Positions 1-23,775 of a DNA stretch of 64,000 bases are shown piece by piece. Source of the DNA: Geosiphon pyriformis. Lineage: Eukaryota; Glomeromycota; Glomeromycetes; Archaeosporales; Geosiphonaceae. How positions within the stretch are numbered: the stretch's first letter is position 1; each line of letters begins with the position of its first letter. Below the pieces are notes generated by a model. That model had not been told where the DNA came from. It did no database searches and saw only the letters and a list, made by a program, of their open reading frames with translations. The DNA is taken from the NCBI GenBank assembly GCA_016748015.1, contig JAAOMT010000379.1:234042-298041 (forward strand), given 5' to 3'. Made by a program: the position numbers and the translations under genes.

Positions 1-1239
1 ATTAAATTTCAGCCTTTTACACGTTATAGTTTCAAAAATATTTGTTTATTTTCCTTTTTAATAATTTTGATCCAGCTAAAATTTACCTTTCAAAAGGGCA
101 TTGTATTTTTAAATTTTCGTCTTAATCGGAATAGCTATAGTGCATTTTTATAAAGAAATAATTAAAATTTGACATTAATTTTATTTCGTACACTTTAGAG
201 TGCCCTTTTCGTTCATAACAAAACGTTGAGAATTGGATTTGGTCAATTGATCTAAAACGAGATAGATAATCGAAACCATTTTTGGGTGGGTGAATGTTTA
301 ATGTCCCATTCAAGACAAAACAAAATAGATTTAATTGTTATAATGGTTAAAATGTGAAAAAAGTATTGAATTAAATATCCCAGCTTAGAAAAAGGTTAAA
401 CTTTTAAAAAGAAACAATTTTATCAATTTTCATCAATTCTAATTTGTTTTTGGGTAAAAAATTTAAGAAAATATTGATTTCAATCATTCCTTTCATTATA
501 TTCCCTTTGATCAAATGTAAAATATTAAAACTACCGTGAGAAATATTTCAAAAAAATATTTTGTGTTACTAAAAATTAAAAGGGACACTCAAGTTTTTTT
601 GCTGGTTTATCATATACTTTTTGGTGTTGATTTTTCTCGTTAAAAGGCTGGAGGAAATAAAGAAAAGGAAATTATTCAATAAAATCTTTAAATCAAATTT
701 TTTTGTTTATCATACATTTGGGTAATAGAAAGAATTCCAAAAGAGCAAAAAAAAACTAATTCTGAATTGTTTATATTTTTTTCAATGGTTGTTTCATTTT
801 CAAATTTAAACTTAGACATTTTAAGATTTTCTATGAAGAGAAAACCCGTTGATGTCCTCAGTTCATTTCCCAACTAATAATATTGATCTATCATCAAAAA
901 CATACAGAGACTATCTCAAAGATCCATTAAACATTCTTTGGAATTTCTTTGTAATGAGACTAATTTCTTTGTAATGAGACTAATATCTCATTCACATTAA
1001 AAAAAAATTCTTTGAAAAAACTATTATTTATAATTAATCAGAAGAACGGTGAAATGTTAGATCTAATATCTTCTGGGCTAGAATTGAATCAGTAAAATTT
1101 TTTATAAAAACTAAAGCTTGAAACTTCAAAGAACAATACCCTTCTGAAGTTTATTCAACGAATAATAAATTCTTTGAAAACAAAAGATTGCAATTAAAAT
1201 AACGTTTAACGTCTCTCAAAAAGCTTTACTTTATATAAA
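1..1239. other. AT-rich 5' flank with no gene seen
   Basis: No supportable gene. The short open frames here lack coding texture and recognisable domains. The stretch must contain the promoter of the repeat protein that starts at 1240. It holds a perfect tandem duplication of a 20-bp unit (941-980) and TATA-like strings, one near 1096 and one just before the ATG (1231-1239). Confidence 0.5.
941..980. repeat. 20-bp tandem duplication upstream of the secreted repeat gene
   Basis: Two adjacent copies of AATTTCTTTGTAATGAGAC, each preceded by one variable base, begin at 941 and 961. They lie about 260 bp upstream of the start codon at 1240. Whether they act as regulatory sites is unknown. Confidence 0.8.
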
Positions 1240-2091
1240 ATGTCTCACCAATCTTTTGCTCCCTTGCCCACAATCTTTTTGATAACTCTTCTTCTCACCT
1301 ACCTCTTCGTCTCGGCTATTCCAAATGGATATGGTAGTGACGGAAATGGAAACGGAAACGGCAATGGAAATGTTGGAAACAACAACGGAAACAACAACGG
1401 TAACAACAACAGTGGTAGTGGGAACGGAAACAACAACGGTAACAACAACGTTGGAAGCAACAACGGAAACTTGAACGGTAACAACAACAGTGGTAGTTAT
1501 AACGGAAACTTGAACGGTAACAACAACACTGGTAGTTATAACGGAAACTTGAACGGTAACAACAACACTGGTAGTTATAACGGAAACTTGAACGGTAACA
1601 ACAACACTGGTAGTTATAACGGAAACTTGAACGGTAACAACAACACTGGTAGTTATAACGGAAACTTGAACGGTAACAACAACACTGGTAGTTATAACGG
1701 AAACTTGAACGGTAACAACAACACTGGTAGTTATAACGGAAACTTGAACGGTAACAACAACACTGGTAGTTATAACGGAAACTTGAACGGTAACAAAAAT
1801 AATGGTTCCTACAATGGAAACTTGAACGGTAACAAAAATAATGGTTCCTACAATGGAAATTTGAACGGTAACAAAAACCATGGTTCCTACAATGGAAACT
1901 TGAACGGTAACAAAAACCATGGTTCCTACAATGGAAACTTGAACGGTAACAAAAACTATGGTTCCTACAATGGAAACTTGAACGGTAACAAAAACTATGG
2001 TTCCTTCAATGGAAACTTGAACGGTAACAAAAACTATGGTTTCTACAATGGAAACTACAACGGTAACGCAAACGGTGTCGAATACCATTAA
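1240..2091 (+). CDS. Secreted Asn/Gly-rich 13-residue tandem-repeat protein
   Basis: A single-exon frame of 283 residues. Residues 1-26 look like a signal peptide: a polar start, then a hydrophobic core (TIFLITLLLTYLFVSA) with a likely cut after VSA. Residues 27-71 are simple Gly/Asn sequence. Residues 72-279 are 16 units of 13 residues with consensus GSYNGNLNGNNNT, and the protein ends VEYH. Seven central units (1531-1803) are identical in DNA; later units differ in codons and swap NNNT for KNN, KNH or KNY. There are no cysteines and no known enzymatic domain. The composition suggests an extracellular or cell-wall-associated protein, or a repeat effector; this is inference. The antisense frame across the array is also open, but only because the repeat keeps it free of stops. 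I do not recognise a named family. Confidence 0.8.
   Translation: MSHQSFAPLPTIFLITLLLTYLFVSAIPNGYGSDGNGNGNGNGNVGNNNGNNNGNNNSGSGNGNNNGNNNVGSNNGNLNGNNNSGSYNGNLNGNNNTGSYNGNLNGNNNTGSYNGNLNGNNNTGSYNGNLNGNNNTGSYNGNLNGNNNTGSYNGNLNGNNNTGSYNGNLNGNNNTGSYNGNLNGNKNNGSYNGNLNGNKNNGSYNGNLNGNKNHGSYNGNLNGNKNHGSYNGNLNGNKNYGSYNGNLNGNKNYGSFNGNLNGNKNYGFYNGNYNGNANGVEYH
1453..2076 (+). repeat. 39-bp coding tandem repeat array (16 units)
   Basis: Sixteen in-frame 39-bp units encode the 13-residue repeats. The middle seven are base-for-base identical, which suggests recent expansion by unequal exchange or slippage. The 3' units form a second subfamily with different synonymous codons, such as TCC TAC AAT in place of AGT TAT AAC. 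Confidence 0.9.
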
Positions 2092-3003
2092 ATTATCATT
2101 TGTACAAATTAGCGATACTTTTTTTTTCTTAAAATTAGAAAATATCTTATTTATCATTTCGCATTTTAAATTTTTATAAAATGATGTAAAGGAAGTTTGC
2201 TTAAATTCTTGAATAAATTATTTATTTTTCCCATAAATAAGATCTTGGACTAAATAATCGAGTGATTTTCCCACTTGATTTAATCAGGTTAACAATATCC
2301 AAGTGGTAAGAATGAGTTTGAAAATGGTCATATAATAATTAAAATGTGACCTCTTTAAAATTAAAAATTTGAAGACAATGCAAGGATAACTATTTTTAAA
2401 AATTGCCATTCACAAATGAATACTGGAGATTTTGGTATTTATTCACAAAATTGGATAGAGAGCCTTTAACTATAGCTGCTCGTTTGTTACTTGAATTTTC
2501 AGGTTTACATTTAATCTTATGAGAAGAAACAATGTAATAAAATTGATTAAAGAGATAAATAATAGGTGGTTAAAAATTATGGCATAAATTCAAAGTTTAA
2601 TTTTTATTATTAAATTCATATTTCTAATTTCTAAATCCCATAATTTTTGATTTTTTTTTGCAAGACAATTTTATTTAAGCTCAATGATAAATTTTATATT
2701 CTTTTTTTAATGTTTGCTATTTTTTGGGAATAAAATAAATGTTATTTTTAGCAGAATTTGAAATCAATTATGTAAAAAGTCAGATGAAATTTTACAAGAA
2801 AAATTTTATTTGTAATATATTATACAAACAATCCAAAAATAAAAGGTTATTTTTTAAATAGATTAAAAAAATGCTAAGAAAACAAAAGTTTCTTAGCATA
2901 TTGTTTAAATGGTATTCAAATATATTTTTGGAATTATGTACAAATAATGCTTAAAATTATAAAAAACTGCATCATCATTTTATATTAACCAATTATTTTT
3001 ATT

Positions 3004-3560
3004 TTCAAAATTTATCCTATTATAATGACTAAACAATATAAAATCATTACTTATCTGAGTTGCTGCTGCATATATTATTTTGAATCTCTACTTTTTATTT
3101 GTCTTTTTCTATTTCAAGTTTAATTTTTCACTTTTTTAAATCTTTTTTTCTTTACTTTATTATTAAATAAAATTTTTAAAACTTATGCCATTATAACAAC
3201 TAAACAATATAAAATTATTACCTATTAGAATTGTTGCTGAACACATTATTTTGTATCTTCACTTTTTATTTGTTCTTTTCTATTCCAAATTTTCTATATT
3301 CTATTTGTTTTTTTATATTTTTTTACTTATTTTTTTGTTTTTTTTACTTATTTTTTTGTTTTTTTTAAATTTTTTTTCTTCTATAATACTTATCACTTTT
3401 AAGATTATTTAATATTTGGTAAAATATTATTATAATAACTAATCTTTTCAATATTACCTAATATTTAGTAAGAGAGTTATTATAATATCTAGATAATATA
3501 AAATTGTTATTTCTCTATATATATTATTTTATGTTTCTGGATTTTGCAAACTTTTTATAA
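3004..3560. repeat. Diverged tandem repeat, about three copies
   Basis: Copies of a segment of roughly 130 bp begin near 3004, 3172 and 3460. They share the core CTAAACAATATAAAAT.ATTAC (changed to CTAGATAATATAAAAT in the third) followed by an ATTATTTT..T.T motif. The first two copies align well for over 100 bp; the third is weaker. Judged by eye only. Confidence 0.5.
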
Positions 3561-4244
3561 TGACAATAATTTTACTAATATATAATACATTATTATAAAT
3601 AATAATATAAGCATAGTATATAAATTCACTTTATTTAAAAGCAGAGAATTTAGAAAAAAGAAGAGAACTTTAAAAAATATTTAAAAAAGTAAAAAAAAAT
3701 ATTTAATATTTGTTTTTGAACAAAAATCAACTTAGATTTATATATTTTAAAAAGAAATAATTAAATTACATTTAAAACACAAAAAACACAAAAATAAAAA
3801 TAAAATAAAATAAAAATAGAATTTTGTTAATAGTTATAATCAAAAATTATATGTTTTAGCAATTTTTTAGTAAATTAAAATACCTAAAAATTTGGAAATG
3901 TAATAATATTGGTTTGAATTTATGTGTTTTAATAAATATTTATCATTAAAAATAGTAATAATCTTTCAATTTTTTGATACGATTTAATAATTTTTGGTAT
4001 TTTTTTATTTATTTTTAGGAATACAAAATTTTTGTAATAATTTTGTTATTTTTAATTATTTTTAATTTTTTCTTAATATTTTAGTATTTTTAGTATTTTT
4101 AATTATTATATTATTTATATTATTAATATTTAATTGGCTAATTAATACTATTATTATATTATTGATTTTTTATGTTGGTAATACCATCTTATTTTTAGAA
4201 TTAGTTATTGATAAAATTATTAACCTTATTAATAATTTAATTAT

Positions 4245-4440
4245 TAACTTATTATTAACTTAATTATTGACCAATTTATTAATTTCTTTTCAAAAATATA
4301 TAAGTAAAACTTTTTAAAAACGTAGAAATTTATTCAAAACTAGAATTATTCTTACTTAAATTTCTTAACAAGCTAATTACAATAATTTTAAATTCTTTTT
4401 TATTATTTAATTTTTTTTTTGATTTGTATATTGTTAACTT
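4245..4440 (+). repeat. AT-rich direct repeat, copy 1
   Basis: Matches about 10005-10180 in the same order and orientation: an ATTATTGA segment, then AATATATAAG, a TTTTTAAAA stretch, a long T run and ATTTGTATA. The copies are imperfect. They could be long terminal repeats of a decayed element or two copies of a dispersed AT-rich repeat. Confidence 0.35.
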
Positions 4441-7400
4441 TTTGTAAAATATGTTGAATAAAAAATATTTATTAAAAAAAATCTGTTATTGAATTATAAG
4501 AATGTTAATATAAAACATATAACTATAGCAGTTGTATTAATTTTTATTGACAGTATAAATTCTTTAGTTACTTTTTAGATAAAATAACAATAAAACATTT
4601 ATAAAACTGATCTTACACATTAAATTTCAAAAAATTTAATTAATTTATTTATTTATTTGAATTTACTCTTTAATTGTTTTTTCACTATAAAATATTTGTT
4701 TTTTTTCTATTCATTAATATATTATTTTAATCTATAAAATAAAAGTAATGTTTTTTGTGAAGTTATTTAATTTTTAATTTATTTATTATTATATAAATAA
4801 CTATTTCTCTTGAGTACAAAAAAACAAAATTATTTTATTGCTTACAATTGAAATAATTTAGATTACATCAAACTTAATTTTTTATCCTCTTTTTTTATTT
4901 AAAACCCAGTTTATTTTGACAGTTTCAAGATTTTTAGAATTGGTTTTTAATTATTTATTTAATCAAAACCTATTTAGCTTTTACTGTTTACTTTTTTGAT
5001 CAAGTTTATTTTGAAAAAGATTTTTAAAACAGAAAAAATTACATTAACCAAATAATATTTTTAATCAATTATATCTTGAGTTTAAAGTTTGAAATTATTG
5101 CATTCACAATTATATAGTTACCTATTAATTAGTTAAAAATTCTTTAAAAATTGAAAATAAAAAAAGTTATAAACTGCTTTTATTTTTGAACTTTTTTTAA
5201 GTAATATAAACTTATTCCAGACCAAAATTTAATTTAATGGCAAAAATATTTTATTAGTCTTTAAAAAATTCAAACGGCTCTTAATTAATAAAATATAATT
5301 TTTTATATCAATTTTAAAAAAATGCACAAAATCAAATTAAATAATTAGAAAATTTTAAAAGAACAACAACAGTTAATCAATGCAATAATAACTTTAAGTT
5401 TTATATTCTTTACAATTTGATTTGAGAAAAAGTTTAGAACTTCAATTTTAATATCAAAATAGCACATTGAATTAAAATAACAAATCCAAGAAAAGTAATT
5501 AATAAATATGTAAAAGTAATTTCAAAGTTAATAAAACATTCAAATTCTGGAAAAAACCGAACAAAAAGTAAAAAAAAAATTTTTTTTTATAAAAGAATTA
5601 AAAATTATAGAATTAGCTTAGTGCATCTGATTTTTTCAAAGGTCTTGATTTAATTGATTAATTGGAAGAAATTATTCAAAAATTTTTCAAAATAAAAATA
5701 AATCTATATAGAAATAATAAAACAATCAATTTTTTGGAAAGAGAAAATTTACCAAAACTCAGTTTTTGTAGCTTTTTATTGTCATATCAAGTGTAAATTT
5801 TCCGATTTAAGATTTTCATTGAAATGAGAGGTTACTTTATGTATTTAAATAAATCAAAAGTCCTGTGAAAATAATTTACATAAATATTAAGTATCCAATT
5901 AACTTAATCTATGATAAATTTTTTAATTTAAATTTCATTTATTACTATACATTTATAGAAAAAATATTAAATCAATTAGATAGTAATAATTCAAACACAT
6001 TTGAACTTGAAATAATATTTTAAAAAAAATTCTACCAAACTAGATTTTAAAAAATTATTTAACTAAGTAATCGTTTTTTACAATTTCTTATTTATTTTTA
6101 ATTTGAGCAACATAGATTAAAATCAATTATCAACACTAATTATAGGCGTCAATAGAATATATCTTATCAAAAACAATTCAAATTATAAAAAAGATATATA
6201 AATTTTTAATTTCAACCAAAAATTATCATTATTGTATGCTTATTTACAATCAAATAAAAAATATGAGAAATAAACTCATTTTTACTATAAAGCTTGTGTT
6301 AAAAAATGGTTTGGTTCTTTAAAACAATTATCAAATAAAACACGCTTTTTGTTTAATCTAAAAAATAATGTTTTCAAAATAATTTTTTTGAATTCGTATA
6401 TTCTTTAAAAATAGTTGGTAACCAAATGTGTTAATTGCTGGTTTACTCTTATTACATAATTTAATAACTTCTTTTTGTTATTAAACATGAACTTTTAACA
6501 TATATTTTTTGGCTAAATTATTACATATAAACGGAATCAAAACTTTTAAAGTTTGAGAAAAAGTCTATCTACCTTAATCGAATGCAAAAATTTGCTTGTA
6601 TCAATAACATCCATTTTTTCATTAACATCCAATTGGTATTGTATGTTTAATTTTTTTTAAAAAAATATTAATTTATTAATATATATTAAAGATTTAAATT
6701 GCCAATTTAATAATTAAAATTTTGATGTAGAATAAAAGTATTAATAATATACTTAATATATATGTGTTATTAAAATCCAAAATTGAGAAAAATAAACACT
6801 TTAAAATTGGTTATTAAAAAGAATATTTGATTGAAAATGTTCTTTGGGATAATGTTAATTTATAAAACATACTAATAATCTGTTGGCTTTTTTGGTTAAA
6901 CAAAATTTAGATTTTAAGAAATTTTGCTAATCAAATTTATACAATTGAAAAAGATAAATCTTGACTAACTTACAAAGAAAAAACAACCTTGAAAAATACT
7001 GACAAAAATCATTTTAAATGTTTAACTTTTGTTTAGTTTAGAATAAGACGGATTATTTATGAATCAAAAAAGAGCTATACATTTGTATTTTTTGAAATTT
7101 CATTAAAATATAAAATTTGGATGATAGATAGCATTTTCATGTGATTGTTAATATTAAAAAAAAATTCTTGTTATTATTTGTTTATTTACATAAATACAAT
7201 TAAATTTGGTTGTTTGTTTTTAAAATTGCTTGCTTGTAAAGATATTAAATTTATGAGCTTAGAAATTCCCAAAATAGTTTTTTTTGAATAAAAAGAATTT
7301 ATAGTAAAAACATATATAAATAGCTACATAGATAGTAACAAACAAAAGTTCAAAAAATTATTTTAGAAAAATAAGATTAATGGTTTTATAACTGCAAAAT

Positions 7401-9610
7401 ATGCAAAAGCCAAGTATACTTTATTTTGTATTTTCAATATATCTTAAATTTGCATAAATTTGTTTGGGTTTTGTTTTATATTAACTTGTTTTGAAAATAA
7501 TTAATCTTGTTTTTTTTGTTATTTTGAGTTTAACTACAGAATAATATTATACAATAAAACACAGATACAACCGAACAGTTATGTGAAAAAAATTGTTAAA
7601 AAAGTAAAAAAAAAACTTTTAAAAATCCTCCAACAATAATTTAATCCAAAAAATTAACACAAAATAATTAAGAAATTTAGAAGAAATAATTTCCAATAAT
7701 ATATTGTTATTATTATTTAAAATAACCGAATATTTTAAATTTTGTATATCAATAAGTTCAAACAGATATTTGACAAAACAATAGTGTAACAAATAGAATA
7801 TTTTATTGGAAAAAACAATTTAATAATTCATTTAAAAGCCATATACTGACTATACTCTATATTTTAAGACTATCATGAAATACTATTACATTTAGTCATA
7901 GAATTATTAACTATAAACAACTGAAAAAAATAATCAATTTGCAGTTTAAAAAACTAAAATAAAAATTTCTAATATCATAATGAAAAAAATAATTAAGTTT
8001 ATTCAAGAAAAAAATTAATTGGATTTCACTAAAGCTTAATATTAAAAAAGAAAAAAAATATTACTATAAAGTAATATAAAAAAAATAATTAATAATTAAA
8101 TATAGCATAAATTAGCCAATCACATCTTAGAAATTATTAAATAATATAATAACAAAAATTTCAAAAATATCAAAAAAGTCAGAAATCCAAACAATAACTC
8201 AAAAAAAGTGCAAAAATTATTAAAAATTCCAGAAATTCTGTATTACAAAAATTTATATATTAAAAACAGAAAAATAATAATTTTTTTATCAAATATTTTT
8301 TAAATAATTTTAATAATTAAACAAATATCTACTATTCAAATTCTATTAATTCATATTTATCATATTAAAATTACTTATTTTTAAACTAACAATAATAAAA
8401 AATCTAACAATATTATAATAATAGCTCTTAATTATAGCTATTAATAAAATACTAATTCTTTACTTTATTATTTCATTTATTTTCTTTTTTTTTGTTTGTT
8501 TGTTTTATTGTTTAAATTAATTAATTAAGAAAAAATGCTAAAATTATAAATCAAAAATTGTCTAATAAAAAATACAAAAATAGGCATAAAATTAACTTAG
8601 TAAAAATTGAATTACTTATCAAAAAAATAAAAATACCAGAATAAATTAGTTATTATATTATTAATTATAATTATTTGAATTTTTGTTTATTATACAAAAA
8701 ATTCAACTGTTAAAATTTTCAAATTTATTAAAATTTACAATATTAACTTATAGATTAATATACTATATAACTAATTATAATACTAGTTAAAAAGTTAAAT
8801 ATACTAAATTTATTAATAAATCTTTAACAAAAAATTTCAACTTGATAAAAACTATTTTAGTATAGTATCTTAATAAATATTTAAAAATTGGTTATTAAAT
8901 TATAGTTTTGCTAATTTTCATATATATTTTATAAAAACTTTTAACAAAAATTGCTATTATATTTATTATAATTTAAAAAAAACTTTAACTACATATTTTT
9001 GTGTATTTTTAATTATATTATAAAAAAACTATTATTAATAACTGTTTTAATAATTAAATTACTTTAATTTATAGATTATTTATAAACTTATTTGTTTTAA
9101 TTATTATATAATATTATTGTTAATAATTATATTTATATAATAATTGCCAAAAAAATTATTTTTAAAAATTATTACTAAGATATTATTTGTTTAAAAATAT
9201 TGTTAAAATTAATTTTAGTAAAATTTTATTGTTTACAAAAAATTTTATTTAAAATAAATTTATTGGTTTTGGTTTATAGCAAATTTGTAATTAGTTTTAA
9301 TATTTTTTGTAAATATTTGTAAATATATAACATAATTTTGATTAACTTAAATAACTAATTAAATATAAAAAAATATAAGTCATACTTATTTAAAATTTTT
9401 TATTATTGTATTATAATAAGTAATAATTAAACTATATTTATTAAATAAATAAATTATAATAATATTGTATTAAAATATTATTTAAATAAAATAATCTATT
9501 TAAACTAAAAAAATATTATTATTTAATATATACTTAGATTTAATTACTAAACTATTTTACAAAAAACAATAATTTAACAAATAATAAAATTATATTAAAA
9601 TATTATTTAA

Positions 9611-17350: not shown

Positions 17351-18602
17351 TTTTAGAAATATATTTTATAGTAAAAATGACTCTTTTGAGGTCTAAAACG
17401 CGAGTTTGAAAGTTTTCTAAAGTTTTTTTTTTTTCAAAATTCCTTGAGATCTTAAGACTTCTATTTTATTCTAAAAATCAAGTCACAAAGTGAAACATCC
17501 ACTTTCCCTTTTCAAACGGTTTTTTCAAAAAGGGCGATTTATTTTGTTTAGATCTCTTTGTACCTCCATCGCTATTTGATCATTAACATTTGACTTGATG
17601 CCATGTTTTATAATATTCTAGAAAGAAGATCTCGATCTTTCAAACAGAACATACGACTAGGGAAATGCTGTGCAAAAAGGTTGAATCAAAGCCTATACAC
17701 CTGAAGATATTTTTCTTAAAAAGCATTCTAATGTATAATTAGGCTAATATCCGATAAAATTTCCTAAAAAGTTTATATTTAAGGAGAAATTTCTTCCTTT
17801 TTTGGATAATGAGATTTCTGATTCCTCGCCATGGAAAACCTTAAAATAAAAAATTTTGGACTTTAATGATTCTATGACACCATCGCTTTGTCATGGTAAA
17901 TCACAAATCTCCGTTAATCTCTTGCAACCTATAATAAGTTTCCGAGGTAAATAGGCATTTCGGGTTCTATTGTAATTTATTAGTTCACGTGAAAGGGGGG
18001 GGTAAGAAAGAAGACTACGTTGTGATCAAAACTTGGGCTTACAGTGAAAATGTTCTATGGAGGAAGACCAGCGTGAAGATCTAGAAGATTTCTGCAAGTT
18101 TTATTTATATGGCTTGTACACAATGCATCTTACCATACCATCATAGGTGTGATCTGACGTTTTAAGATTTAGGTTAAAAATTAAGAAAATGTCCACGCCT
18201 TTGGAGAAATTTCAAAAATTAGGATTATCCAAATCTGTTTAGGGTAAAAATCAATTCTTAAATTTACAATTCAAATTGGAAGCTTTTAAAAAGAAAGCAG
18301 ACAGCTGATCTGGAAACAAGCTTATTATTTTAAGAAGTCAATAAAGTAGTTTTGATTTCTGCTTTAACCAAGTTCTGCTTGTTAAAGAATTTATAATAAA
18401 TAGATTTTCCAAACCACAAATTTACAATTTAGAAAAAAATTCATTTAAAATAAATAAATAAATAGTTCCTTTTAGAAAATCATTATTAGCCATTTGTGAT
18501 TTATATTGAAAAACAGAGAAAGTTGGAAAAAAAATTTATTAAGACGTAATTAATTTCAATCAAAAGTAATTTGTTTTTGTTTTTCATATATTCTAGCAAG
18601 CT
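17351..18602. other. Intergenic, no gene identified
   Basis: AT-rich sequence with some higher-complexity patches. A 31-codon frame from ATG 18057 (starting MEEDQREDLEDF) looks somewhat protein-like but has no partner exons that I could find. Confidence 0.45.
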
Positions 18603-18634
18603 TTATATGGGCATGCTGCAACAAAACCAGATAA
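18601..18634 (+). repeat. Left 34-bp inverted terminal repeat
   Basis: TTATATGGGC, one variable base, then TGCTGCAACAAAACCAGA. It matches the reverse complement of 22787-22820 at 31 of 34 positions. It points inward and marks the left end of the bacterial-like insertion. Confidence 0.9.
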
Positions 18635-21030
18635 AGTGAACATAACGTCACAGAGTATTTTCAGAGTTCAAAATTTAGTAAGCCACAATAATAGCTCGGT
18701 TTCAGTAATCTTTTAATTACTTAATAATCTTCCATGTAAGATACCAATTTTTTCTCCCTCCAATAAACTCTTCAATTCAGTTCAATTTTTCTAAATTCTA
18801 TTTGCTTTCCTGCTTTCCCTCTAATTCCTGTTCATTTTATTTAACAATTCTTTTCTTTGTTTATTTAGGTCGAAATATTTTTTGTTGGTAATTATCGATC
18901 TTTAATGTCATAATCAAAATGGTTTAACTGTTCTTTAAATCAGGTAAATTTGATAGTAAAAGTTTTATATACTATCAGGTAATCATTCTAGCCCACTATC
19001 AATAACGAAATTATTGCACATGAATAGAATTTTGTTTGCGTTTGACTCGCTCTGTAAACTGAAAGAATCTGTCAAAGTTTTCTCGCGAGTAACCGTGATG
19101 AAACGCTTATTGCTTGAAGTGAAAAATACTTGCATGTAATAACATGGTTTTTTTGTGTTACACGAAGGGTATGTATCTGTTAAACAATTGAAATCAATAT
19201 GCACATGCATTTACCCTGTTTCTCAACTCTTTGGCCAAACAAACCAATGCTATTTACATGCCTACGCTCCTTCATTTGGCTGAATCTATACATTTTGAAT
19301 CTGTTGTCTATTGCAAATGGAGATAAGTACATAATTTTGTTGCTTCTACATGCTAATACAATTAGAAAACAAAGTGACTGGGTATTCTCTTGCAAAAAAT
19401 GGTGCTGTGTTTTAGTAAACTTATATAATCATTATTAATTTATTTAGTGCTTTTTTTAATAACAATTTAAATGACCTGAAATAAAATCAAAAAATATTTA
19501 TAATAAGATATTTGGATTTTTATTAATAGTTTTATTTCTAAAAAAAATTGTTTTGTTATATAAGGTGTTTTAAGCTTTTACCAAACTAAAACAAAAAACA
19601 TTTTTAATAATCTAGTTGAATAAATACCAGTTAACATTTTTAAAAAGAAAAATCATATTCATAAAAGAACTTTTTACTGTTAAGATTATAACATATTCAA
19701 AACAGTAAAAAATCATTGATGAATAATCTATCTTGATTTTGTCAAAGTTGAATCTGGCAAGATAACAAAAATTAATAAATTAAAAGTAATTTTCAGAAAA
19801 AATAAAAGTATAACATTGAGTCGATTTTTTTTAGTATTTGATTTAGAATTTTTTGCTTCATTATATATATATATATTATTTTTAAAAATAAAAACTTTAT
19901 TGGATTATTTTCTCTTTTAAAGATTTATTTGTTATTTCTGATACTTTTGCTTGCAGTTTTTTATTAAAAAAATTTTCTTTATTAGAATTTTTGTTTTTTT
20001 TAATAATAATTTTTTTATCTCATAACTTTGGTGTCAAATAATTTGAAAATATAACTTTTTTATTATGTCTTTTTTTAAATGCTTCAAATAGTACTGTAAT
20101 TTTTTGGATCTAATATAATAAGTTTTATATATAATTTTTAATTACTGTTAAATTTTAACATAAACGTGTAAAAAGATATGCATGTCTACTTAACTTAACA
20201 ATCTTACTTGAACAGCCAAATTAATTATATTATTTCCACAATTTTTAGCTTTGCTTAAAATCAAGTTTTAATTTAATTTGACATTATTGCTTTATTTTTA
20301 AATTTTACTTTAATCTAATCTAATAAATTTATTTATTTTTATCCACAAATAGTTTTTTTTAGTTTTAAGCATAGAACTTGATACTTTTACTGCTTACTTT
20401 GCTTTCTGGTAGGTTTATTAGAGGTCTTTTGAAAGTAATTTCGCCTATATTTATTATTCCTAAAATGACAGATATTAATTATTTAGCAAAAAATTTAATG
20501 AAATGAGTAAAATAGGGTTTTGAATAATTTCTTAATTAATCTTTCAGTTATTGTAATAAAATTTATTATCAAGTGATTAAAGAAAGAAATAAAAAACAAA
20601 TAATAATATTAAAACAAGTAAAAAATCTAATCTTTCCTGTGTTCAAAAATTTTTTTGTAATTGGAAGCATTTTAAGCTAAGTTGGTTTATTTGCCAAAAA
20701 TTGGAAATTAAAAAGATCAAACAAAATATTAACAAAAGAAGCGTTTACAAATTTCCAGTTTATATAACAGAAGAGAAAAAAGCCATAAGTAAAAGATATA
20801 AAGTCTTAGAAGCAATTACTTTTAAAAAAAGAGCAAGTTTACAGTAGCCAAGGAAGAAAAAACTCAGAGATTGGGATAATTTGCTAGTTTATTATTAAAG
20901 AAATAATTATTTGTTTATTAAGGAAATTAAATATATTTTTAACTTTGATTAAATAAACAAAAGCAAGTATTCTTGTTGTTATTAGTTATAAACTTATGGT
21001 TATATCGAAAAAATTGTAATTTATTTAAGA

Positions 21031-21135
21031 ATGTTTAACAAAATAACCAAAAATGCAGAAGTATTTGGTCTACTGGGTATTTTTCTTATTTCTTTCTTAT
21101 TTTTATATTTATTTAAGGAATTGTCTTTTTCCTAA
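21031..21135 (+). pseudogene. Short membrane-anchored frame at the head of a bacterial-like gene
   Basis: A 34-codon frame starts MFNKITKNAEVFGLLGIF and continues into one hydrophobic segment (LISFLFLYLF) before a stop. A single N-terminal membrane helix is common at the start of bacterial membrane-linked proteins. It sits 170 bp upstream of the AAA+ remnant and may be its original N-terminus or a separate gene. No homology was established. Confidence 0.35.
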
Positions 21136-21307
21136 TCATTTTCTTTAAAACTTCCATATATGATTCGTTAATTATCTTATTGGCAAACTTAAAGAATAAT
21201 AAAATTATTCAAAGAGGTATATTGAAAAAACATGTATGATTAATTAACTTTTGAAATTAATGTTTTAGATCACTGTTAAAATAATAATAATATATAAATG
21301 ATTAATA

Positions 21308-22050
21308 GATGCTTCGGCTAATTTAAAATTTACGAAAAGTCAGAAAATAAATGAAAAAAATCTTAAAAAGCATGTTGAATATATTGAAGAAAAGAAAGCT
21401 CAAAAATCATATACTTTTTTTGTTCACAGAAACAAATAATTTGTCATGATGGTCAGGAATAGGCAAAACAACCTTTGTGCAGACTTTACCTAATGCAATG
21501 AACAGCTACTATAATTAATCTCTTGTGCTGGTTTTATTTTTGGAGATAAAGGCTAATCAAATTTAGCAGTTTGAGCATTTAAAGAAACTCATTGCAAAAA
21601 TTCTATTATTCTACTGGATGAATCAGAAAAAGTAGTTGATGAAAAAATGCAATCAGATTTTTAATATTGAAAACGGAGAAAGACCAGCCCACATTATTTT
21701 TTTTGCTGCTGTAAATTACAAAGAAAATTAGCCACTAAAGTGAAAGATACTGTTGATTTAAAGAACTAGAAGGCTATACTAATGAGAAAGAGATGCAAAT
21801 TTTGCAAAAAAAAAGGACAGAAATACAAAAAGCCTATAATCTAGAAAAAGACGAGATCGAAAAGTGCTCGCAAAAGATGTTTTGGAATTTTTGATTAATA
21901 CTTGAATTCAAGAAAAAATGGTGCCGAAAAAAGACACAAATTTATAGAGGAATACATAATCGCTAAGCAGACTATCGGTAAGCATTTCAAGGAGACAAAC
22001 AAAGGTGAAGAGAAAAATATTTTATTATTTCAGGAAAGCCATAAATTAAA
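21308..22050 (+). pseudogene. Decayed bacterial-type AAA+ ATPase, Lon-like
   Basis: Pieces in shifting frames follow the order of a Lon-type AAA+ module. First comes a helical lead-in (INEKNLKKHVEYIEEKKAQ), then a Walker A with GIGKTTF (21455-21475). A segment FIFGDKG follows, then a Walker-B-like IILLDESEKV (21605 onward), VNYKEN in the position of the sensor-1 strand, and an ELEGYTNEKEMQILQ helix like the SGYTEEEK segment of Lon. It ends in a lid-like tail (TWIQEKNGA, IAKQTIGKHF). TGA occurs where Trp or another residue would fit. At least four frameshifts make it non-functional. The Lon assignment is motif-based inference. Confidence 0.5.
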
Positions 22051-22147
22051 TTGACGATATCATTTACTTTTCACTTCATTTAGGCTTGATTTAATTCTAT
22101 TGATAACTTGAATATTTACAAAATTTTTATTAAAAAAGGAACCAATT

Positions 22148-22155
22148 AAAGGAGG
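22148..22155 (+). promoter_or_regulatory. Perfect Shine-Dalgarno sequence inside the element
   Basis: AAAGGAGG five bases before ATG at 22161. This is an ideal bacterial ribosome-binding site and has no role in a fungal nuclear gene. It supports a bacterial origin of the surrounding sequence. Confidence 0.65.
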
Positions 22156-22160
22156 AAAAA

Positions 22161-22680
22161 ATGAATAGAGCAATTGAAACTATTGAAAAGCAATAATAGC
22201 AAAAAAAAACATCGTCGAAATGTCGTCGAAGAACTAGAAAAAGATCTCAAGTCAAAGAATTTTCTCAAGTTAATTTACTGGCTGAGGAAGAGCACAATAA
22301 AGAATTAGGCCAATTAAAAGACCAGATTAACCTAATCAATATAATTGCGAAAACCTAGAATTTATTGAAAGAGAACTTATAGAAATTTAAAATAGTCGGC
22401 AAAACAAAGAAATTGTTGAAAAGGGTTATTTGCTTTAAAAATATTGAGAAAAATTGTCAGGAATTAAGCCTTAGAAGAATCTTTTTTACCAGTATTTGAC
22501 AGTGAGCAAAGCGATAAACTATTTAATTGAGAAGTAGATTTATCAAAGTTTATTCTCATTGCTATTACCACTACTTAGGAAATCAAAAAATTATCGGATT
22601 CTTTGATTTAACGTTTAGATTTGGTTAATGCGAACACAGTTGAGTCAAAAAATATTTCTTGGAATAATATTATTTGGCAT
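22161..22680 (+). pseudogene. Second decayed bacterial-type gene with a Lon-like AAA+ segment
   Basis: Starts MNRAIETIEKQ after the Shine-Dalgarno, followed by a charged coiled-coil-like part (VVEELEKDLKSK, LLAEEEHNKELGQLKDQI) spread over two frames. From 22468 to 22680 a single 71-codon reading gives ALEESFLPVFDSEQ, then EVDLSKFILIAITTT, EIKKLSDSLI and RLDLVNANTVES. This parallels the Lon AAA+ core around LDPEQN, DLS-V-FIATAN and the arginine after the loop. Inside it are TGA at 22528 (Trp fits), TAG at 22576 and TAA at 22609 (Gln fits both). The gene is broken and not expected to be expressed. It may be a separate gene or a displaced part of the upstream ATPase. Confidence 0.45.
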
Positions 22681-22786
22681 CTTCGCTTTTAATTTTTGCA
22701 ATTAAAGGTAGAGGCGAAAATAGGAAGGGTAACATTAGTCAACCCGATTAATTGACTTAAAGAAAAATGGGAGTAAGACAAATCTA

Positions 22787-22820
22787 TTGTCTGGTTTTGT
22801 TGCAGCACGCCCATATAAGG
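22787..22820 (-). repeat. Right 34-bp inverted terminal repeat
   Basis: Reverse complement of the left repeat at 18601-18634 with three mismatches, all transitions. It closes the bacterial-like element. Confidence 0.9.
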
Positions 22821-23775
22821 AGAAATCAATGCTTTGTTTTATTTTTTAATTTTTTTGTTCATGAATCCAAAATAAGAAATTTGATGTTTTTAATTTGAAT
22901 ATTCTTTAAAGAAATTAACATTTTATATAAATTCATTTTAATTTATTAATACCATAAAAATTTCTTATTTTTAATATTAAAACTAATCAGCATTCTCAAT
23001 AATAATTTCAAACAGATTTACTATTATTATTTTCAAATACAATTGGGTTAATTATAATTAAAATATTCCGAAAAAAAAATCTAAAAAATATCGTATTTTA
23101 ATATGAGCTCAAAATTAACTAAATAAAACAAATTTATTATAAAATTATGGATTGTTTTATTGTTTGGTATATTTGTTATATTATTCGATAATAGGTTAGA
23201 AAGTTTGTGTTGTTAATTTAGAATCTTTGCTTATAATTGTAAACCATAAAATATATTCATAATATTCAATATTAAAAAATTGCAAAATTTAAAGCTTACT
23301 CAAATTGAAAAAAGTTGTATTTTGTATTTGTTAAATTTTAAATTTTATCAATAAAAAGTCTAAATTATTTAATTTACTAATGGCAAAAACTTTTTCAGTC
23401 AAAGTTATATGCGTAATAAAAATTTTTAAGACATTATAAGGATACACGTATTATGATTTTTTACCAAAAATTCTTGAAGATCAATTCATTGAAATACGCA
23501 GTTTTGATACGTAATATAGATTTGCTAATTGTTTATGTGAAGCACTCATGCACACATGGATATTAAACTTTGTTAAATCACTGCAGGAACTAAGAAATTG
23601 ATCATTTGACTCGGTAGGTAAAAACCTTTTTGATGTTATTCCTCATCTTATGAATGAGGTATTTAACTCATTAAATTTTCTGAAGCTGAAATCAAAGACA
23701 TGCGGAATATTATAAAAGATTAAAATATTTATTTTATTTTTGTGGGCTAACTGTTTCAGGAAAATTTTATAAAAA
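22821..23775. other. Intergenic, upstream of the F-box gene
   Basis: AT-rich with no gene seen. An acceptor-like CTGTTTCAG ending at 23759 and a TTTTATAAAA string lie just before the ATG at 23776; a 5'-UTR intron is possible but unproven. Confidence 0.45.

Follow-up and report, generated by a model that had tools for sequence, protein, structure and literature searches.

The 64-kb stretch of fungal DNA analysed here (G000:C378:234042–298041), referred to below as the window, contains a 4.2-kb element framed by two 32-nt inverted arms (18603–18634 and 22787–22818), in which 30 of the 32 bases match (94% complementarity). The near-identical inverted repeats noted in the preliminary description were thus borne out, and so were the fungal flanks: besides the F-box-like and FAD/D-amino-acid-oxidase-like genes named there, kinase, ankyrin and TLDc genes were found around the element. 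Genes of this type suggest that the host is an arbuscular mycorrhizal fungus. Because the limits TGGGGC...GCCCCA and 2-bp duplications recur across the paired members of the transposon family described below, the element was placed at 18608–22813. It is one decayed DNA transposon, and it is non-autonomous, since DUF7869, the domain of the probable transposase of the family, was absent when searched for over the whole 64-kb window. The following features were assigned:

18606–18607, no strand: left target-site duplication, TA (paired members show 2-bp duplications outside TGGGGC...GCCCCA)
18608–18673, + strand: left terminal inverted repeat, outer motif and inner subfamily part (89% to positions 1–70 of the family consensus)
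18674–21339, no strand: AT-rich interior without an identifiable gene
21351–22022, + strand: remnant A, a Lon-like AAA+ ATPase module with frameshifts (Walker A motif GIGKTTF; in the part present in both, its DNA is about 74% identical to that of C315)
22149–22163, + strand: ATG start codon of remnant B, preceded by the Shine-Dalgarno AAGGAGG (AAGGAGGAAAAAATG)
22161–22785, + strand: remnant B, a second frameshifted Lon-like AAA+ module (74% DNA identity to C315)
22787–22813, − strand: right terminal inverted repeat, reduced to its outer part by loss of the inner one (from the comparison of the arms and from paired members)
22814–22815, no strand: right target-site duplication, TA (same 2-bp duplication pattern of the pairs)

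The element was flanked by TA on both sides, an agreement which is weak alone in AT-rich DNA, and its inner left end reached to about 18673. No RNA family was matched in the region 18001–23400 at E <= 1. A segment of the interior (19151–19343) recurred at C320:73012 and C324:931091 with 73–77% identity.

Lon-like cargo of the window element

The cargo (21351–22785, + strand) consisted of two frameshifted Lon-like AAA+ modules and was about 74% identical to C315:700299–701024; the motifs of the Lon AAA+ module were present, mainly via this sister copy. For the Lon searches, the read-through of remnant A was spliced with one C315 stretch, and the readings of this composite query were joined across frameshifts by eye. 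The spliced reading matched Lon structures in the PDB (E = 1e-6) and the NCBIfam lon family (E = 2e-7), and the C315 reading of remnant B gave a weak match to Pfam AAA (E = 0.02). In a frame-tolerant alignment with five bacterial Lons, C315 obtained z = 11.1, the window halves 4.3 and 4.4, and the controls up to 3.2. As C315 scored far above the window halves, the Lon-likeness, and with it the two Lon-like AAA+ remnants of the preliminary description, which were corroborated, rests mainly on C315. The scores failed to separate bacterial from fungal nuclear Lon. The Ser-Lys protease domain of Lon was absent, the sequence stopping at the transposon end after 'GVRQI'.

Remnant B broke off with '..KEKMGVRQI' at the start of the transposon end, and the exact join of '..KEKMGVRQI' to the inner end was found at at least six loci (window, C315, C366, C286, C346 and C392). 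Since this fusion is common to all of them, the remnant is transposon cargo, and one capture followed by multiplication explains the shared join. The divergence between the window copy and C315 was nearly even over the codon positions (18:12:21), and with this pattern and its many indels the Lon-bearing set looks to have been dead for a long time. No intact Lon-like copy was found in the fungal genome. The fungus has Lon genes of its own (C305 and C380), but these are canonical and distant from the remnants, and they were rejected as the source. A weak further match resembling the Lon cargo (E = 8e-4, 25%) was noted at G000:C283:564951–565409.

At a purine content of 0.587, the cargo strand was richer in purines than any other stretch of the same length in the 64-kb window, and the GC content of the cargo was 0.288 in comparison with 0.34–0.39 in host genes. 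The cargo is probably of bacterial type. The perfect Shine-Dalgarno reported earlier was indeed present in front of remnant B, but one other AAGGAGG-N3..8-ATG occurs within the 64-kb window, so the motif is weak as sole evidence. It was also missing from most of the ORFs of the family read in code 4 (TGA=Trp), and as a signal too common by chance it was rejected as proof.

The transposon family across the fungal genome

The genome surveyed comprised 124.7 Mb in 406 contigs, and all copy counts given here are lower bounds. A search of the fungal genome for the repeat, suggested in the preliminary description, revealed the outer end motif ATATGGGGC[AG]TGCTGCAACAAAACCAGACAAAGTGAACAT at at least 78 sites with up to 3 mismatches, while the reversed-pattern control gave 0. 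Facing end pairs (+/−) lay 0.4 to 8.6 kb apart and had the family layout TGGGGC...GCCCCA with 2-bp duplications, mostly TA, also AA and TT. The pairs 0.4–0.5 kb apart were MITE-like (C81, C298 and C370), and pairs 5–9 kb apart were located in C294, C309, C330, C355, C266 and C280. Because the ends occur at so many sites, a single nuclear insertion of endobacterial DNA was rejected; the past endobacterium-to-nucleus transfer considered in the preliminary description does not hold as a lone event, the window element being one member of a large family.

The protein encoded by the long family elements matched Pfam DUF7869 (E = 1.8e-16), and about a dozen end-motif loci had a DUF7869 gene close to the ends; in L056, the gene lies at 4588–6393 on the + strand. 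Hence, this protein is probably the transposase of the family. DUF7869 was matched in none of the 14 prokaryote control genomes, and the transposase family looks eukaryotic-type. The other earlier proposal, a bacterial transposon with cargo, stands as far as a mobile element with inverted repeats and Lon-like cargo of bacterial type is concerned, but not for the transposase.

Several long family elements also contained host-type genes in the standard code. The left half (934–4062) of L058 (C280:6100–13300) held such genes, among them one with a protein-kinase-like domain (E = 1e-6), beside a code-4 transposase, which makes it a mixed-code element. In L061 (C366:952000–961500), a 347-codon ORF, open in the standard code and similar to a Tc1/mariner transposase (7325–8365, − strand), was located near the end of a Lon-bearing element.

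The genetic code of the family and of its host

The preliminary description had pointed to TGA where Trp fits. In the window cargo, TGA made up 5 of the 11 in-frame stops without an excess over off-frame positions (p = 0.27); the observation is thus not significant for the window alone, but it was upheld by the sister elements. At the aromatic site of Lon (NYTREAG), TGA was found in remnant A ('..FLINT[TGA]IQEKM..') and in the remnant B copies of the window, C366, C392 and C286, and the TGA common to these four copies appears to be one ancestral codon; a 2-nt insertion occupied this site in remnant B of C315. Raw TGA-rich code-4 ORFs were rejected as proof. Tandem repeats yield false ones, such as the code-4 frame at 1286–2176 of the window, a repeat artefact open over 297 codons with 15 TGA, and the antisense of C346, so an ORF was taken as evidence only if it contained a domain or if its Trp columns were conserved and under selection.

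The DUF7869 gene was compared at 14 loci, in which five Trp columns held 29 TGA, 14 TGG, 1 TAA and 1 GAT, the last two falling in heavily decayed copies. TGA and TGG interchanged at four of the five columns. No other in-frame stop was found within the aligned gene at 10 of the 12 less decayed loci, and the remaining two had one TAA (L072) and one further TGA (L071). Among the genome-wide DUF7869 matches listed (at least 35), interruption by TGA only was by far the commonest pattern. The pairwise dN/dS of the gene under code 4 was 0.04–0.08 where dS was estimable, with dS between copies ranging from 0.57 to above 1 (saturation). Most copies therefore diverged while the TGA-containing gene was functional, and comparison of the copies demonstrates, at the level of sequence, that the transposase was kept under purifying selection while its gene was read with TGA as Trp.

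A sister element in C330 carried another gene of this kind, which encodes a HIT domain (E = 1e-7) and has 15 TGA and 0 TGG. It is free of TAA/TAG, for which the expected chance in that frame was 5e-13:

L055 (C330:920500–926600), 4244–5551, − strand: intact 436-codon code-4 HIT ORF with zinc-ribbon-like cysteines

In the zinc-ribbon/coiled-coil ORFs of C309 and C355, the common Trp sites read TGA/TGG and TGA/TGA. A HIT-like homologue was present at L057 6365–6820. Directly behind the DUF7869 gene of L047 (C150:210800–214800) lay a 326-codon code-4 ORF (923–1900, + strand) with 3 TGA and 6 TGG, for which no family match was obtained.

Twelve nearby host ORFs contained 71 TGG and 0 TGA, and three of them terminated in TGA. 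As the genes of the family follow the TGA=Trp code and their host neighbours the standard code, the family evolved in a TGA=Trp system. Its codons show beyond reasonable doubt that TGA was read as Trp, a reading that applies to the transposon family and not to the window copy alone. No tRNA gene, including suppressor tRNAs, was found inside the family elements.

Origin of the family and comparison with known systems

The explanation we consider probable is a donor using TGA as Trp, most likely a Mollicutes-related endobacterium, with gene capture in this donor, repeated nuclear insertion and decay of the copies. Such endobacteria (Candidatus Moeniiplasma) are reported to live inside hyphae, and the Mycoplasma genetic code is used in their annotation (PMC10507103). 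They would be the best source candidate, because bacterial-type cargo (lon-like, HIT) in the same TGA=Trp code points to a Mollicutes-type donor. The family would have evolved in an endobacterium living in the fungus and captured there a piece of a lon-like gene pair (window element) or a HIT gene (sister element). From this donor, it would have entered the nuclear genome of the fungus again and again, leaving copies that decay there; lysis of the endobacterium inside hyphae could free element DNA and transposase close to the nuclei. Since separate nuclear copies diverged under selection, several independent arrivals are likelier than one arrival followed by nuclear amplification, and we infer this route, with repeated transfer, in preference to decoding in the fungus. 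The fuller picture, in which a family resident in the endobacterium, with a transposase of eukaryotic type, picks up bacterial genes and continues to insert into fungal chromosomes, crossing both domain and code boundaries, is held somewhat less firmly, as rather likely.

Counted against an endobacterial origin were the eukaryotic-looking transposase, the few Shine-Dalgarnos, the standard-code host-type genes in long elements, the lack of TGA enrichment in the window, the Lon-like scores that do not tell bacterial from fungal nuclear Lon, and the outcome of the donor searches, in which no Mollicutes or endobacterial homologue was obtained from a genome collection, IMG/VR, phages or plasmids. 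The scan of the collection with the Lon composite was empty, and the endobacterial 16S pattern matched no genome in it; no relatives were found in IMG/VR or in phages, and in plasmids only remotely related Lon and HIT genes turned up. Many fungal copies with a eukaryotic transposase had been named in the preliminary description as speaking against its reading. Many copies and a eukaryotic-type transposase were found, yet the transposase gene itself is written with TGA as Trp.

It is unlikely that the family is a true nuclear resident whose TGA codons are decoded as Trp by the fungus through a suppressor tRNA or strong readthrough, with no bacterium involved, although this alternative fares best. 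It would agree with the host-type standard-code genes of several elements, with the absence of DUF7869 from the prokaryote control genomes and with the dN/dS values, which show function while in a TGA=Trp system. However, host genes end in TGA and use TGG only, the HIT ORF would require 15 readthrough events, the elements contain no tRNA gene, and a bacterial donor is suggested by lon-like and HIT cargo that share this code. Marginally less probable still is a donor with another TGA=Trp genome, whether the mitochondrion of the fungus, a virus or phage, or some protist whose code has been reassigned. Mitochondria and some protists also read TGA as Trp, and it is only the code that the data show, but Lon and HIT are bacterial housekeeping families, neither of which is, to our knowledge, carried by fungal mitochondrial DNA, and phages and IMG/VR were without a match.

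An ordinary fungal transposon, with TGAs arisen by decay of TGG codons and with a fungal pseudogene as cargo, is very improbable. The missing TGA enrichment in the window copy alone and the almost even divergence from C315 over codon positions would fit it, but in the family TGA is confined almost entirely to Trp columns and swaps with TGG, TAA and TAG are almost lacking, and the otherwise open genes, one HIT gene with 15 TGA among them, stand under a dN/dS of 0.04–0.08. The Trp columns and dN/dS refute this origin for the family, and a pseudogene is possible for the window cargo only. An assembly chimera or contaminating endobacterial DNA is the most improbable of all: Mucoromycota assemblies are known to include contigs from endobacteria (PMC11423566), but dozens of contigs carry the same ends next to fungal genes, and with lengths of up to 2.3–2.7 Mb they exceed what an endobacterium could supply; the search for a co-assembled endobacterium revealed no SecA or PolC anywhere in the assembly and a single SSU match of 18S length.

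If the endobacterial origin is true, this genome keeps dated, code-tagged records of DNA passing from an endobacterium to the host nucleus, with a built-in test, as TGA at Trp marks where a gene last worked. The transposon would then be a mechanism for bacterium-to-fungus gene transfer in arbuscular-mycorrhizal-type fungi, for which mainly the opposite direction has been reported, and would offer a way to ask whether a single element can work under two genetic codes.

The cargo resembles Lon (endopeptidase La) in its Walker A, DLSK and lid motifs and in the structure and NCBIfam matches. Unlike Lon, it has about 22% identity, two consecutive modules and a protease domain cut off, and all copies are broken. 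The elements themselves are similar to eukaryotic TIR DNA transposons, MITEs and Pack-type elements in their terminal inverted repeats and short target duplication. Like MITEs and Pack-type elements, they include 0.4-kb copies beside long ones with the probable transposase, and, as in Pack-type elements, captured gene fragments are cut at the element end and multiplied along with it. In contrast to eukaryotic TIR transposons, they have a transposase and captured bacterial-type cargo that follow the TGA=Trp code, whereas the copies reside in a standard-code nucleus.

Mollicutes-related endobacteria are alike in the TGA=Trp code and in gene exchange with the fungal host. Such exchange is reported in the direction from fungus to bacterium (PMC10507103; PMC5982333, citing earlier work), whereas the direction proposed for the transposon family is from bacterium to nucleus; transposon transfer of the latter kind was not found in the literature searched. 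Mitovirus copies in plant genomes (PMC4393810) are likewise a replicon of an organelle compartment found in host genomes. However, these are copies of an RNA virus, whereas the fungal family is a DNA transposon with its own ends and target duplications.
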